DNA of 64,000 nt. It comes from Hydrogenophaga pseudoflava NBRC 102511 (GTDB lineage: Bacteria > Pseudomonadota > Gammaproteobacteria > Burkholderiales > Burkholderiaceae_C). Of this stretch, positions 32,839 to 41,084 are shown one piece after another (the stretch's first letter is position 1; every line of letters begins with the position of its first letter). The stretch spans positions 62,001-126,000 of the forward strand of contig NZ_BCWQ01000003.1 of the NCBI RefSeq assembly GCF_001592285.1. The letters run 5' to 3'. Under the pieces are notes generated by a model. That model worked only from the letters and a program-made list of their open reading frames with translations. It did no database searches and had not been told where the DNA came from. The position numbers and the translations under genes are program-made.

Positions 32839-33005
32839 GGGGTCCTCCGGGTGTTGTGGCTGGCGTTCCCAACCGCGGGTTCGCCATGCCCTGCATCGTT
32901 CCCAAGACGCGCGGAAGTCTCAATGCGGCCAGCGGGCGGGTTTGCCGCCGGCCCCGGAAGAAATACTCACAGGGGCCCATTCCGGGCCGCTTCGATAATC
33001 GGCCC

Positions 33006-33701
33006 ATGCCCACCGTTGCCGTGATCGAAGACGACCGCCCCACCAGCGACCAGCTGGCCGGCTGGATCCAGGCCGCCCGCCCCGAACTGACCGTGCACCA
33101 GTGGTTCGACCGCGACAGCGCCGAGGCCGCGCTGGCCCGCGAGCGCTACGAGCTGGTGGTGCTGGACATCGAGCTGGGCCGTGAGCGGCACGCGGGCGTG
33201 GCCATCATCAACACCATCAACAAGCTGCACCAGGGCACGCCGGTGCTGGTGGTCTCGGCCATGCCGGCCGCCATCTACCGCAGCATCATGAAGGCGCTGG
33301 ACGCCTGGGATTACCTGCAGAAGACCACCTTCGACGAGGCCGAGTTCGTCGAGACCTTCCTGGACATCCTGCGCAGCGCGCGGGCGCAGAAGGGCGCGGC
33401 GCCGGTGGCCGCGGCCGACGAGGAACTGAGCCTGGACCCGCTGTGGCAGCGCTCGCCCACCTGGCGCGGCCAGCGCATCAACCTGCCGCTGACCGCGCAG
33501 CGCATCCTGGCCGTGCTGGTGCAGCACAAGGGCCAGACGGTGAGCTACGAGGACCTGTTCGAGGTGGTCAAGAGCGGGCGCAACCGCGACAACGTGCGCA
33601 AGCACGTGAGCGCGATCCGCGACGCGTTCCGCGACCTCGACCCGGGCTTCGACGCCATTGAAAACGTGCCGATGCGCGGCTTCCGCTGGTCACGGCCGTG
33701 A
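33006..33701 (+). CDS. Two-component response regulator, winged-helix output
   Basis: A 231-residue regulator. The receiver domain shows the acidic pair in VIEDDRPT, the phospho-acceptor Asp in LVVLDIELG (near 50) and a switch Ser in LVVSAMPA; the canonical Lys of the fifth strand is in YLQKTTF. A C-terminal OmpR-like winged helix (LPLTAQRILAVLVQHKGQTVSYEDLF; VRKHVSAIRDAF) binds DNA. The stop overlaps the kinase GTG by four bases, so both are translated together. The stimulus is unknown. Confidence 0.9.
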   Translation: MPTVAVIEDDRPTSDQLAGWIQAARPELTVHQWFDRDSAEAALARERYELVVLDIELGRERHAGVAIINTINKLHQGTPVLVVSAMPAAIYRSIMKALDAWDYLQKTTFDEAEFVETFLDILRSARAQKGAAPVAAADEELSLDPLWQRSPTWRGQRINLPLTAQRILAVLVQHKGQTVSYEDLFEVVKSGRNRDNVRKHVSAIRDAFRDLDPGFDAIENVPMRGFRWSRP

Positions 33702-35848
33702 AGTTCGGCCCGCTGGACCTGCCCTCGCTGCCGGCGCTGACGCTGCCGCGGCTGCCGCTGGCGGCGTTCCGGCGGCGCATCGTGTTCCACGGCGTGTTCC
33801 TGCTGCTGGCGTTGGCGGTGGTGGGGCTGGCGCTGACGCTGCTGGCCGAGGAGAAGCAGCGCGCGCGGGCGCGCTACGAGGCGGGCTTCCGGCAGACGCT
33901 CTCCACCCTGGCCGCGCAGCTGCGCCACCCCACCGGGCAGCTGGCGCTGATCAACGCCGACGCGGTGGCGCCTTCGGACGCGGGGCTCTCGCCGGTGGTG
34001 CTGCCGTTCTCCGCGCTCGACTACTCCGACCCGTTCAAGGCGCGGCAGGCGGTGGAAATGAGCGGCTGCGCGGTGCACTGGCCGAACGACGGCGGGCAGC
34101 TGTGTGTGGGTGTGGGCAACAGCGCGTACGCGGGCGGCGTGGTCTACCTGGTGGCCGACCTGGTGCTGCCACCGGCGGTGGCGCGCGAGAAGGGCACGCT
34201 GGAGCTGGACCCGGTGAGCCACGCGGTGATCCGCGCCGAGACCGCCGCCGGCACCGAGCGCTGGGTCGCGCCCTTCGAGGCACCGGGCGACGCACCGGCC
34301 GACCTGGGCGACGGCGGCCTGCGCGGCCGCATCACCGGCTTCGCGGGCGAGGGCACGCTGCTGGTCAAGGGCTCGCGGCCGGTGCGCGACTTCCGCGGCT
34401 GGCTCTGGCAGGAGGCCGGCTGCGCGGTGCCGGGCCAGGCCCTGCCGGACTGCGCGCGCCGCAGCCTGCTCTCGCTGCGCGTGCCGGTCGAGGCCTGGCG
34501 CAAGGCGCTGTTTGCCAAAGGACCACGCACCTGGCCGCCGGCCGACCTGGCGCAGACGCGGCTGCACCTGCAATGGGTGGGGCCGGGCGGGCGGGTGCTG
34601 TTCGACAGCGCGCGGCCGGGCGCGGAACGGGCGTTTTCGCTGCAGCAGCTGGCGGGCACGCTGTCCGAGGGCGAGGTGCTGCGCATCGAGCGCCTGGGCG
34701 CCGACCAGCCGCAGCTGGTGACGCAGCTGCGCGGCCAGGCGCAGGGCGAGGGCGTGGCCGCGCCCTGGCTCACGCGCCTGATCCTGCGGCTGCCCTCCAG
34801 CGACACCCGCACGCAGGTGTCGGCCAGCGAAACCGTCAGCACCTCCAGCGGCCGCTACCAGCTGAGCCTCAGCGGCGAGCTGGCCAGCGTGGACCGCAGC
34901 CTGAGCGCCACCGCCACGCGCGTGAGCGGCTTTGTGGGCGCGATGCTGGCGGCGATCTTCCTGGCCTGGCTGGTGATCGAACTGGGCCTGATCCGGCCGG
35001 TGGCGCTGCTGACCCAGCGCGCGGCGGCGCTGAACTACAACATGCAGGACCCGCAGGTCGAGCGGCGGCTGGGCGATCTGGACGTGAGCGAGTTCCGCGG
35101 ACGCGACGAGATGGGCATCCTGGCCGGCTCGCTGGCGGCGCTGCTGCAGCGGGTGAAGGAGGGCGTGCGGCGCGAGCACCTGCGCAACGAGCAGGAGCGC
35201 GACATGTGGCACGCGGTGGGCCACGAGATCATGTCGCCGCTGCAGTCGCTGATGGTGCTGCACGGCGACGCGGCCGACCCCAGCCACCGCTATGTGCACC
35301 GCATGCAGCAGGCGGTGCGCGCGCTCTACGGCACGGCCTCGCCGAGCGAGGCGATCACCGCGGCCACGGTGGAGGTGGACGCGCTGGACCTGGACACCTT
35401 CCTGCGCCACGTGGCCGAGAACGCGCCCTACGCCGGCATCGCCGATGTGGTCTACGCGCCGGCCGGCGCGCCGGTGTGGGTGCAGGCCGACGAACACTCG
35501 CTGGAGGACGTGGTGACCCACGTGCTGCGCAACGCCGACCGCTACCGCCCCACGGGCACGCCGGTGACGCTGGCGCTGTCGGGCCTGGGCGAGGCGATGG
35601 TGGCGCTGGAGATCCACAACACCGGCCCGGCGATTCCCGAGGCGCTGCTGGACAAGATCTTCGACTACGGCGTGAGCGACGGCGCGGCCAGCGGCGCGCA
35701 GGGCGAGGGCCGCGGCCAGGGCCTGTTCGTCGCACGCACCTACATGGCCAAGATGGGTGGCACCATCACGGCCGCGAACGTCGGCGACGGCGTCAGCTTC
35801 ACGCTGCGCCTGCCGCGCGCCACCTCACGAACGCCCACTTCCGCATGA
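33698..35848 (+). CDS. Membrane sensor histidine kinase
   Basis: A 716-residue kinase from GTG 33698. A first membrane helix at about 27-48 (IVFHGVFLLLALAVVGLALTL), a large periplasmic sensor to about 405, a second helix (VGAMLAAIFLAWLVIEL), a HAMP-like linker, then the H-box VGHEIMSPLQSL carrying the phospho-His. The ATPase domain has LRNADRY (N box), HNTGPAIP (G1) and GRGQGLFVARTYMAKMGG (G2). The sensor domain matches no family I know. It is partner of the response regulator upstream; the exonuclease ATG overlaps its stop. Confidence 0.88.
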   Translation: MKFGPLDLPSLPALTLPRLPLAAFRRRIVFHGVFLLLALAVVGLALTLLAEEKQRARARYEAGFRQTLSTLAAQLRHPTGQLALINADAVAPSDAGLSPVVLPFSALDYSDPFKARQAVEMSGCAVHWPNDGGQLCVGVGNSAYAGGVVYLVADLVLPPAVAREKGTLELDPVSHAVIRAETAAGTERWVAPFEAPGDAPADLGDGGLRGRITGFAGEGTLLVKGSRPVRDFRGWLWQEAGCAVPGQALPDCARRSLLSLRVPVEAWRKALFAKGPRTWPPADLAQTRLHLQWVGPGGRVLFDSARPGAERAFSLQQLAGTLSEGEVLRIERLGADQPQLVTQLRGQAQGEGVAAPWLTRLILRLPSSDTRTQVSASETVSTSSGRYQLSLSGELASVDRSLSATATRVSGFVGAMLAAIFLAWLVIELGLIRPVALLTQRAAALNYNMQDPQVERRLGDLDVSEFRGRDEMGILAGSLAALLQRVKEGVRREHLRNEQERDMWHAVGHEIMSPLQSLMVLHGDAADPSHRYVHRMQQAVRALYGTASPSEAITAATVEVDALDLDTFLRHVAENAPYAGIADVVYAPAGAPVWVQADEHSLEDVVTHVLRNADRYRPTGTPVTLALSGLGEAMVALEIHNTGPAIPEALLDKIFDYGVSDGAASGAQGEGRGQGLFVARTYMAKMGGTITAANVGDGVSFTLRLPRATSRTPTSA

Positions 35849-38043: not shown

Positions 38044-39711
38044 TCAATCGACAGCAAAGGTCCAGACCGACCCGCCGGCGGGCACCTGCGACATGCGCTC
38101 GTCGCCCAGCAGCGCCCACACACCGCCCGCACCCGAGACGATGCTCACGTACTGCTTGCCCTTGTGCTCGAAGGTCACCGGCAGACCGATGATGCCGCTG
38201 CTGGTCTGGAACTCGTAGAGCTTCTTGCCGTTGTTCGCGTCCACCGCGATGAACTCGCCCGTGGCCGCGCCGGTGAACACCAGGCCGCCGCCGGTAGACA
38301 GCGTGCCGGCCATGCTCGGTTGGCCCGGCCACGCCATCTGCCACTTGCTCTTGCCGGTCATCGGGTCGATGGCGCTGAGGTAACCGTGCGGTTCGTTCTT
38401 GGGCATGTTCACGCCGCGGAAGTTCACGCCCAGGTACCACTCGCCCTTCTTGTACTCGGGCTTGGCCAGCTGGTAGGGCCAGCTGATGTTGAGCGTGTTG
38501 GCGTAGGCGAGACCCGTGGACGGGTTCCAGGACATCGGCGTCCAGTTCTTGCCGCCGAGCACGCTGGGGAAGATCTCCACGTCTTCACCGGCGCGCGCCT
38601 TCTTGTCGGTTTCGGTGGGCACCGGGCGGCCGGTCTTGAGGTCGATGCGCTCGGCCCAGTTGACCTTCACATAGGGATTGGCCGCCAGCAGCTCGCCGCT
38701 GGCGCGGTCGAGCACGTAGAAGAAGCCGTTGCGGTTGGCCTGCGCCAGCACCTTGCGGTCCTTGCCGCCGATCTTCATGTCGACCAGCATGCCGACCTCG
38801 GTGGCGTCGTAGTCGTAGGGGTCGTTGGGGCTGAACTGGTAGTGCCACACGAGCTCGCCGGTCTTGGGGCGGATCGCCACGACCGAGGCGATGTAGAGGT
38901 TGTCGCCCTTGCGCGCGTTCGGGTTCCAGGGGCCGCCGTTGCCGGTGCCCCAGTAGACCAGGTCCAGATCGGGGTCGTAGGCACCGGTCAGCCAGGTCGG
39001 TGCGCCGCCCTTGAGGTGCGTGTCGCCGGGCCAGGTGTCGCCGCCCTTCTGGTCGGGCGCAGCGGTGGTGTAGAAGCGCCAGAGCTGCTTGCCGGTGGCC
39101 GGGTCCCAGCCGTCGATGAAGCCGCGCGTGCCGTACTCGCCGCCGGCGATGCCGGTCAGCACCACACCATTGGCAATCAGCGGCGCGCTGGTCATGGCCT
39201 GGCCGTTCTGGTAGTCGGCGGCCTTGCTCTTCCACAGCTGCTTGCCGGTCTTGGCGTCCATCGCCATCACGTGGGCGTCCAGCGTGCTGCGGAACAGCTT
39301 GCCGTCGTAGATGGCGGCACCGCGGTTGAGGATGCCGCAGCAGGCCATCTTGAACACGTCCTGGGGCAGCTCGATCTCCTGCTTCCAGATCTGCTTGCCG
39401 GTGGCCGGGTCGAGCGCAACGGTGCTGTTGTGCGTGGTCACGTACATCACGCCGTTGTGCACGATGGGCTGCGACTCCTGGCCCTGCGGGTTGTTCAGGC
39501 TGTAGGCCCAGACCGGGCGCAGCTTGGCCGCGTTGTTCGTGTTGATCTGCTTGAGCGGGCTGTAGCGCTGGTTGTTGTAGCCCATGCCGTAGGTGAGCAC
39601 GTCGCCGGGCGTGGCGCTGTCGCGCTTGAGGTCGTCCAGGGACTGGGCGTGCAGGCTGGTGGCGAGCAGCGCAAGCGCGGCCGCGCCCGCCCATCGGGTG
39701 GTCTGTTGCAT
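38044..39711 (-). CDS. PQQ-dependent methanol/ethanol-type dehydrogenase, probably lanthanide-dependent
   Basis: A 555-residue quinoprotein with a signal peptide (ALALLATSLHAQ) and eight-bladed propeller repeats (ALDPATGKQIWKQ, AMDAKTGKQLWKS, GWDPATGKQLWRF). The vicinal Cys pair is in MACCGILN. Near the metal site, Asp300-Tyr301-Asp302 (precursor numbering) has the extra Asp two residues after the catalytic Asp that marks lanthanide enzymes such as XoxF and PedH. It oxidises an alcohol in the periplasm and passes electrons to the adjacent cytochrome. AGGAG precedes the ATG. Shorter than XoxF (about 600 residues); substrate unknown. Confidence 0.88.
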   Translation of the reverse strand: MQQTTRWAGAAALALLATSLHAQSLDDLKRDSATPGDVLTYGMGYNNQRYSPLKQINTNNAAKLRPVWAYSLNNPQGQESQPIVHNGVMYVTTHNSTVALDPATGKQIWKQEIELPQDVFKMACCGILNRGAAIYDGKLFRSTLDAHVMAMDAKTGKQLWKSKAADYQNGQAMTSAPLIANGVVLTGIAGGEYGTRGFIDGWDPATGKQLWRFYTTAAPDQKGGDTWPGDTHLKGGAPTWLTGAYDPDLDLVYWGTGNGGPWNPNARKGDNLYIASVVAIRPKTGELVWHYQFSPNDPYDYDATEVGMLVDMKIGGKDRKVLAQANRNGFFYVLDRASGELLAANPYVKVNWAERIDLKTGRPVPTETDKKARAGEDVEIFPSVLGGKNWTPMSWNPSTGLAYANTLNISWPYQLAKPEYKKGEWYLGVNFRGVNMPKNEPHGYLSAIDPMTGKSKWQMAWPGQPSMAGTLSTGGGLVFTGAATGEFIAVDANNGKKLYEFQTSSGIIGLPVTFEHKGKQYVSIVSGAGGVWALLGDERMSQVPAGGSVWTFAVD

Positions 39712-39800
39712 GGATGTCTCCTGTGGGTTGAGGCTGCGCCTCTGGTTGTTGTCTGTCCTCTTTCATTGTGGGAATTTGGGCGCCGCGGATCACGTCCGGG

Positions 39801-39836
39801 TTTTCCCGGTGGGAAAAGTGTTCTGCAGTGGAACAC
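39801..39836. promoter_or_regulatory. Two abutting palindromes in the divergent promoter region
   Basis: TTTTCCC-GGT-GGGAAAA at 39801-39817 and GTGTTC-N7-GAACAC at 39818-39836 are perfect palindromes placed end to end in the 170-base gap between the PQQ dehydrogenase and the GAF/Fis regulator. They are good candidate operators; the second has the spacing expected for a Fis-type dimer. Which regulator binds is inference. Confidence 0.6.
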
Positions 39837-39881
39837 TCACCCACACCGCCGCTTCGGACGCGAGACTTCGCCCCCACCACC

Positions 39882-41084
39882 ATGCGCGCCCCCCACCGAA
39901 CCCTGTCCACCCAGGACCTGCCGCCGCAGCCGTTCTTCCAGACGCCCGAGCAGCGCGCGGCGCTGGCGCGCCAGCGCTTCTTCGAGGAACAGCAGCACCC
40001 CGCCGGTCTGGTGAGCGAGGCGGTGATCCGCTCCTGGGGCCGCAGCCGCACGCTGGGCCACGCCAGCCACAAGATGCCCGCGCTGGACCCGGTCAACCGC
40101 AGCGCGCTGAGCGCCGCGCTGGCGCGCAACCGGCGCCTGCTGGAGGCCGCGCACGGCGACCTGCAGCAGCTCGAAGCCGCGCTCGCAGGCACCGCCAGCC
40201 GCCTGATGCTGACCGACGCGCACGGGGTCATCGTGCACGCCTCGCGCGGCACGGGCGACCCCGAACAGAAGGTGCTGGACGCCGCCACGCGCGTGGGCGT
40301 CCAGCTGGCCGAGGAGGTGCTGGGCACCAACGCGCCGGGCATCGTGGTGCAGACCGGCATGGCCTGCACCGTGCAGTGCTGCGAGCACTTCTACGAGGTG
40401 TTCGGCCAGGTGCGCTGCGCGGCCGCACCGATCCACGACGTGCACGGCCGGCTGGTCGGTGTGCTGGACGTGTCCACCGAATCGCGCGCCTTCGGCTTCG
40501 ACGCCGCGGCCGTGGTCGGCGTGTACGCCACCTCGATCGAGAACCGCCTGCTGCAGGCGCAATCCGACGAGCACCTGGTGCTGCATTTCCAGGCCGCCCC
40601 CGCGCTGCTGGGCACGCCGATGGAGGGACTGGCCGGCGTGGACCACGGCGGTCGCGTGGTCTGGGTCAACGCCACCGGCCACAGCCTGCTGGGCCGCCCG
40701 TCGCGCCAGGAGGTGGCGCCGGTGGAAGAGCTGTTCGGCCACGGGCTGGCGCAGCTGCTGCCCCTGTGCGGCGCCACCGAAGCCCTGCGCCTGCAGCTGC
40801 CCAGCGGCCTGGGCATCTGGGTGCGCGCGACCCTGGGTCTGCGCGATGGCATCGACTTCCGGCACGCGGTCGCCTGGCCGGCCACCGTGCCACCCGCGCC
40901 CGGGCCGGTACCCGCCGCCGAGCCCGAGGCCCCGGCGCCCGCCCCGGCGGCCGCCCCCTCGCTGGCCCAGACCCAGCAGCGCCTGATCGAAGACGCGCTG
41001 CAGGCCAACGGCGGCAACGTCGCGCGCACCGCGCGCCAGCTCGGCGTCTCGCGCGGCCTGGTCTACCGGCACCTGCGGAAATAG
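39882..41084 (+). CDS. AcoR-like GAF/Fis regulator lacking the AAA+ domain
   Basis: A 400-residue regulator. The N-terminal LVSEAVIRSWGRSRTLG segment and the GAF region (VQLAEEVLGTNAPGIVVQ; CCEHFYEVFGQVRCAAAPIHD) are those of AcoR-type sigma-54 activators. A PAS-like part follows, then a Pro/Ala linker and a Fis helix-turn-helix (NGGNVARTARQLGVSRGLVYRHL). The AAA+ domain with GAFTGA, normally between, is absent, so it cannot open sigma-54 promoters by itself. It is divergent from the PQQ dehydrogenase operon, its likely target. The start at ATG 39882 is by homology of the first residues; an upstream start at 39768 is possible. Confidence 0.83.
   Translation: MRAPHRTLSTQDLPPQPFFQTPEQRAALARQRFFEEQQHPAGLVSEAVIRSWGRSRTLGHASHKMPALDPVNRSALSAALARNRRLLEAAHGDLQQLEAALAGTASRLMLTDAHGVIVHASRGTGDPEQKVLDAATRVGVQLAEEVLGTNAPGIVVQTGMACTVQCCEHFYEVFGQVRCAAAPIHDVHGRLVGVLDVSTESRAFGFDAAAVVGVYATSIENRLLQAQSDEHLVLHFQAAPALLGTPMEGLAGVDHGGRVVWVNATGHSLLGRPSRQEVAPVEELFGHGLAQLLPLCGATEALRLQLPSGLGIWVRATLGLRDGIDFRHAVAWPATVPPAPGPVPAAEPEAPAPAPAAAPSLAQTQQRLIEDALQANGGNVARTARQLGVSRGLVYRHLRK

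Follow-up and report, generated by a model that had tools for sequence, protein, structure and literature searches.

A candidate composite promoter with two conserved control sites between a PQQ alcohol dehydrogenase gene and a GAF/HTH_8 regulator gene in Hydrogenophaga

The window, i.e., the whole 64,000-nt stretch of Hydrogenophaga pseudoflava NBRC 102511 DNA (NZ_BCWQ01000003.1) that was analyzed and to whose positions our coordinates refer unless a genome label precedes them, contains a minus-strand gene for a PQQ-dependent alcohol dehydrogenase and a divergent plus-strand gene for a regulator, separated by a gap of 170 bp (Table 1). The 400-aa regulator carries a C-terminal, Fis-type HTH_8 domain (PF02954: 38.3 bits, cut-off 22); PF02954 and PF01590 were the only Pfam domains found in it at E ≤ 0.001, a threshold at which an AAA+ sigma54-interaction domain gave no match. 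Its named relatives belong to Hydrogenophaga flava (95%) and H. pseudoflava (94%), the loci of which both recur in our genus search, and among 67 Hydrogenophaga genomes, 36 had a relative at E ≤ 1e-60, as did 33 of 200 genomes sampled from the family (own genome included). The dehydrogenase gene is followed by genes for a cytochrome c (PF13442) and a substrate-binding protein (PF00497), the latter with weak similarity to MoxJ (TIGR03870 and TIGR03871 both below cut-off). The dehydrogenase itself contains the sequence PYDYDATE, with an Asp two residues past the catalytic Asp, a feature that marks PQQ alcohol dehydrogenases of the lanthanide-dependent type.

Table 1. Genes and putative control elements at the locus (window coordinates; a dot marks features without assigned strand).
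Feature	Position	Strand	Remarks
PQQ-dependent alcohol dehydrogenase (methanol/ethanol family), putative target	38044..39711	-	TIGR03075 651 bits, cut-off 480
Putative -10 of the dehydrogenase promoter, CACAAT	39765..39770	-	columns 39765, 39766 and 39769 invariant in 35/35 loci
Putative weak -35, GTGATC	39788..39793	-	17 bp from -10; column 39791 invariant, 39792 at 94% (35 loci)
Box A, CGGGTTTTCCC (CGGGnTTTCCC)	39797..39807	.	about -39 to -49 from the predicted dehydrogenase start
Left palindrome as first drawn, TTTTCCC-GGT-GGGAAAA	39801..39817	.	left arm falls within box A, right arm within spacer that is not conserved
Box B, TGTTCTGCAGTGGAACA	39819..39835	.	putative operator of the GAF/HTH_8 regulator; 11/12 positions fit the consensus TGTTCC-N5-GGAACA
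Regulator, 400 aa, GAF + HTH_8	39882..41084	+	PF02954 and PF01590 above cut-off

The original prediction had described two different perfect palindromes in this gap that abut with no spacer, an arrangement said to be rarely accidental. Both inverted repeats are present where they were drawn, the left one as listed in Table 1 and the right one as GTGTTC-TGCAGTG-GAACAC at 39818-39836; their arms are indeed perfect, and their centers of 3 and 7 nt are not palindromic. As drawn, the repeats do abut, but the right one grows to 39817-39837 with arms of 7, such that base 39817 is common to both. When the 170-bp gap was subjected to 3000 dinucleotide shuffles, 6% of these had at least two inverted repeats (arms ≥6, spacer ≤8), and of 4000 base shuffles only 0.3% had a pair abutting within 2 nt; yet five pairs abutting within 2 nt occur among the 322 repeats of the 64-kb window, and for this reason abutment alone is weak evidence. 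Nor can the two palindromes simply be called different, since both are built on a TTC-N7-GAA skeleton, which has five matches in the 64 kb, three of them in this gap (three per gap: 0 of 4000 base shuffles).

Phylogenetic footprinting gave a strong signal for the right palindrome, for a left box that is shifted with respect to the predicted one, and for a -35/-10-like pair, but not for the left palindrome as drawn. That palindrome was found at 3 of 30 genus loci, namely those of the window and its two closest relatives, in which it is identical, and the positions of its right arm (39811-39817) are variable spacer in other species (column count, 35 aligned loci). Being confined to these three loci and having an unconserved right arm, it was rejected as a binding site of its own. 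Of the two palindromes, then, the right one was drawn correctly and the left one was not, and conservation as a palindromic unit is limited to the right one. The underlying idea of two distinct conserved elements side by side stands, with the difference that the left element is not TTTTCCCGGTGGGAAAA but CGGGnTTTCCC (box A), which covers the left arm of the misdrawn repeat; these true elements do not abut, as 11 nt (10 in one subclade) separate box A from box B.

In the 35 aligned loci, 10 of the 11 box A columns hold one base at 34 or all 35 loci, and position 39801 varies. The rows of this count were chosen for, and aligned on, the core TGTTC-N7-GAACA, which is why the ten core columns are invariant; the box A, -10, and -35 columns lie outside the selected core, so their conservation was not imposed by the selection. 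The conserved columns fit a -35/-10 pair with a 17-bp spacer. The usual site of a class II activator adjoins the -35 element, and the center of box A, at about -44.5 when counted from the predicted start, compares with the class II position near -42, abutting the -35. Box A, with the geometry GGG-N4-CCC, differs from box B and proved too unspecific as a genome-wide marker when used alone (13 places in the window's own genome vs. 6 for the reversed pattern).

Box B, a 17-bp element nested in the right palindrome (GTGTTC-N7-GAACAC), consists of 6-bp arms around 5 bp, which is the geometry of the NtrC box when its consensus is set against the published box. Its core, TGTTC-N7-GAACA, lies between the regulator gene and the neighboring gene in 27 of the 27 next-best genus loci (L039-L065), which were picked by regulator protein similarity alone and blind to the motif; in 26 of these the neighbor matches the dehydrogenase query divergently, the exception being L050. 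Overall, 36 genus genomes gave 38 regulator matches, and 32 of these have the core upstream of the regulator gene (30 of the 38 matches were returned as loci and the rest were retrieved separately or seen in L021; L037 and L038 were left out as duplicates of L035 and L036). The six matches without it are two in G114, one each in G252, G220, and G239, and one on contig C13 of G211; the second copy of G114 (L104) has no exact core upstream. By eye, the diverged regulator copies in G220, G239, G252, and G114 have a variant A+B pattern upstream, and in the diverged group L021, L101, L102, and L103, CAGTAYTTWCCCTAG followed by the half-site GTACACA was seen upstream of the regulator gene. The divergent gene in L101 and in G220 reads, also by eye, as an AMP-dependent ligase.

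The box B core alone is widespread: it occurs in 63 of the 67 genus genomes, 27 of which lack the regulator, and at three further places in the window's genome, so specificity must rest on the A+B pair. An identical core without box A lies at G000:C8:51132-51148 (L067), just after an aldehyde-dehydrogenase-like frame and a small reading frame and before another frame (by eye), and the same 17-mer is kept at G212:C17:235380-235396. A search for the composite (B-N9..13-A) in the 67 Hydrogenophaga genomes returned 40 places in 35 genomes (in G239, on contig C31), with spacings of N11 (28 places), N10 (11 places), and N13 (1 place), and the reversed-pattern control gave a single match in the 67 genomes. 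The composite was present in 35 of the 36 genomes with the regulator (E ≤ 1e-60) and absent from all 31 that lack the regulator (Fisher p ~3e-18, kinship ignored). G221 is the sole regulator-bearing genome without an exact composite: at its regulator locus (L050), box B is accompanied by an altered box A and the flank gave no dehydrogenase match, and its dehydrogenase orthologue (91%), located away from the regulator gene (L086), has no composite.

The association extends to other genera, where 28 regulator loci were scored; the A+B score was 15-20 of 20 in all 19 loci with a divergent dehydrogenase gene and ≤13 in all nine without one (judged on 1500-base flanks, and counting here L020, which has the end of a same-strand dehydrogenase upstream), the maximum of the null, taken from coding sequence of the same loci, being 14. 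With exact TGTTCC and GGAACA arms, a strict pattern that the window's own site fails, a search of 399 family genomes (5 of them from Hydrogenophaga) found 7 genomes, and all 7 loci had regulator and dehydrogenase matches. In L088 and L089, where regulator and dehydrogenase genes are arranged in tandem in that order, the composite lies before the dehydrogenase gene, and in L094 it precedes a PQQ dehydrogenase gene and the regulator gene is on another contig, i.e., the composite follows the dehydrogenase when the genes are rearranged; the orthologue at L086 of G221 speaks against this. The gap seems to house a pair of control sites that form a regulatory module well conserved in evolution.

A second element of the box A type (GGGnWWnCCC) lies between box B and the regulator gene in 26 of the 30 genus loci; it is absent from the window and its two nearest relatives (L035 and L036) and from L043. 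In 18 of the 30 loci this element precedes a (G/C)ATACT hexamer by 25-26 bp, at a variable distance to box B, and in the remaining 8 loci with the element no (G/C)ATACT was found at that distance. Counted on the sequence, the corresponding distance from box A to the -10 of the dehydrogenase promoter is 27 bp. This arrangement suggests that one factor acts from a class II position at both promoters and that box B goes with the dehydrogenase promoter; since such elements lie near -10-like hexamers of both genes, the regulator gene is probably driven by the box A factor as well.

Composites were also seen away from the main site. Extra N10 composites, with the same spacing as the main site of the species concerned, occur at G202:C34:280491 (L090), G207:C49:25589 (L091), G230:C28:73425, and G234:C1:63479. 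The one in G202 lies before a gene for an AMP-binding fatty-acid-CoA ligase (PF00501; best NCBIfam match NF009233, below cut-off, in an incomplete reading frame), and the neighboring gene in G207 looks like this ligase by eye. Next to the diverged regulator copy of G211, an N13 composite (G211:C13:46580-46619; L105 2781-2820) precedes a gene for a GMC oxidoreductase (PF00732). A path from alcohol to acid to acyl-CoA is a plausible common theme of the putative regulon. When H. flava (L035 2051-4000) was compared with the window (38044-39881), the regulator was 95% identical and the control region was kept nearly whole, and the adjoining dehydrogenase was a different one (40% identity); it looks as if the promoter had been retained and the enzyme behind it exchanged.

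The reading that we favor, and hold to be rather likely, is that the gap contains a composite sigma70-type activator promoter of the PQQ alcohol dehydrogenase operon, with box B as the operator of the regulator and box A as the site of a second factor. From the observed sequence, conservation, spacing, and co-occurrence, we infer which protein binds which box, dimer binding, activation rather than repression, the start site, and the inducer. The GAF domain would probably sense an alcohol-related signal, whereupon a dimer of the regulator would bind box B, centered near -69; a second protein would occupy box A in a class II-like manner, touching the weak -35; and the two would jointly recruit sigma70 RNA polymerase to the -35/-10 pair. 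Box B is assigned to the neighboring regulator because its NtrC-box geometry is that expected of an HTH_8 dimer and because of the EtgR precedent described below. As A and B are nearly always found together, their distribution does not separate the assignment of proteins to boxes; neither does the recognition helix, as its SRGxxYR core was kept throughout (all 43 of 44 compared loci that gave a tail; L026 gave none). The earlier suggestion of the Fis-type protein plus a second factor thus survives in outline, two factors seeming the better reading of the locus.

Three other arrangements were weighed against this one. The left palindrome, read as TTTTCC-CGGTG-GGAAAA, agrees with the box B consensus in 10 of 12 positions, and the window and its two nearest relatives share it unchanged, so that in this small clade it might be a second, tandem box B at which two dimers of the one regulator sit side by side. 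We consider this unlikely: the palindrome is missing from 27 of the 30 genus loci, where box A stays conserved, the 18-bp spacing of the centers is not a whole number of helical turns, and the GGG-N4-CCC geometry of box A is unlike that of box B. An exchange of roles, with box A as the regulator's own site and box B as that of another factor, would agree with the similar distances of box A-type elements from the -10-like hexamers of the dehydrogenase gene and, in 18 of 30 genus loci, of the regulator gene. This is improbable to our minds, as the geometry to be expected for an HTH_8 dimer, that of the published NtrC box, is found in box B, and the regulator-side element is missing in the window's clade, where the regulator is kept. 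The direction of regulation is not legible from the sequence, and the regulator could repress through box B, e.g., by looping, instead of activating; no result directly favors repression, and box B, near -69, lies upstream of the putative -35 at a near-fixed offset, as an activator site would, and overlaps neither the -35 nor the -10, which makes repression very unlikely.

In the favored two-factor reading, the box A factor may be a response regulator of the LuxR type, by analogy with the PQQ systems of Pseudomonas. One candidate of this kind was considered and rejected. At G000:C10:87086-91119 (L129, L072), a LuxR-type response regulator and a histidine-kinase-like frame lie beside another PQQ dehydrogenase (45%), recalling Pseudomonas Ped/Exa. 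This PQQ-linked regulator matched in 10 of the 67 genomes at E ≤ 1e-40, with close copies only in the window's genome and in G211 (77%), and it was dismissed because its distribution does not track that of the composite in 35 genomes. An upstream two-component pair in the window itself (32967-33701 and 33698-35848) was likewise set aside; its regulator has an OmpR-type C-terminus.

More broadly, it is possible, and we propose it only tentatively, that an AAA-less relative of NtrC and DhaR works free of sigma54 at sigma70 promoters, through an NtrC-geometry box placed 10-11 bp from its partner's GGGnTTnCCC; that the resulting two-factor module serves the PQQ alcohol dehydrogenases of Hydrogenophaga and of further genera in the family; and that this module, being placed also before fatty-acid-CoA ligase and GMC-type oxidoreductase genes, governs an alcohol-to-acyl-CoA regulon. 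In this case, a protein resembling a sigma54 activator but without the motor domain would appear to act at an ordinary promoter. The boxes are testable candidates for the operator and the partner site of a putative PQQ alcohol oxidation regulator that 36 of 67 Hydrogenophaga and 33 of 200 sampled family genomes encode, and the sequence rule TGTTC-N7-GAACA, N10-11, GGGnWWnCCC could yield candidate targets in a genome. In the open-licence literature, we found no description of this two-box system; a search there with the box strings and alcohol dehydrogenase operator matched only a Corynebacterium iron regulator (PMC1382209), and the available part of PMC8784404 holds no matching operator.

Among known systems, NtrC, which carries an AAA+ domain and acts at sigma54 promoters, binds its box via a C-terminal Fis-type helix-turn-helix; the regulator described here has no AAA+ match, and the conserved columns at its locus fit a -35/-10 pair instead. 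The E. coli NtrC box, TGCACCAnnnTGGTGCA, is a 17-bp inverted repeat of two 6-bp arms around 5 bp (PMC8743547), and box B shares this 6-N5-6 geometry but not the arm sequence. The regulator also resembles DhaR/AcoR in that its residues 38-271 align with the DhaR model, that it has a C-terminal HTH_8, and that the solved DhaR chain 4lrx matches it (E 4e-6); it differs in its equivalog score (70.8 vs. a cut-off of 551), in its length of only 400 aa, and in giving no AAA+ match. For box A, the NreC box, TAGGG-N4-CCCTA, has a similar GGG-N4-CCC core. In Pseudomonas, PQQ alcohol dehydrogenases are under layered control by the LuxR-type AgmR/ErbR and by PedS2-PedR2, which may be a model for the box A factor; upstream of these, the available sections of that account place the sigma54-dependent response regulator CbrB and describe no AAA-less Fis-type regulator (PMC12997753). 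Another parallel is EtgR of Paracoccus denitrificans, a protein annotated as Fis-family and shown to activate alcohol-oxidation genes, which, like the regulator here, adjoins such genes and is required for growth on ethylene glycol; EtgR drives NAD-dependent dehydrogenases (PMC12214560), whereas the putative target at our locus is a PQQ enzyme.
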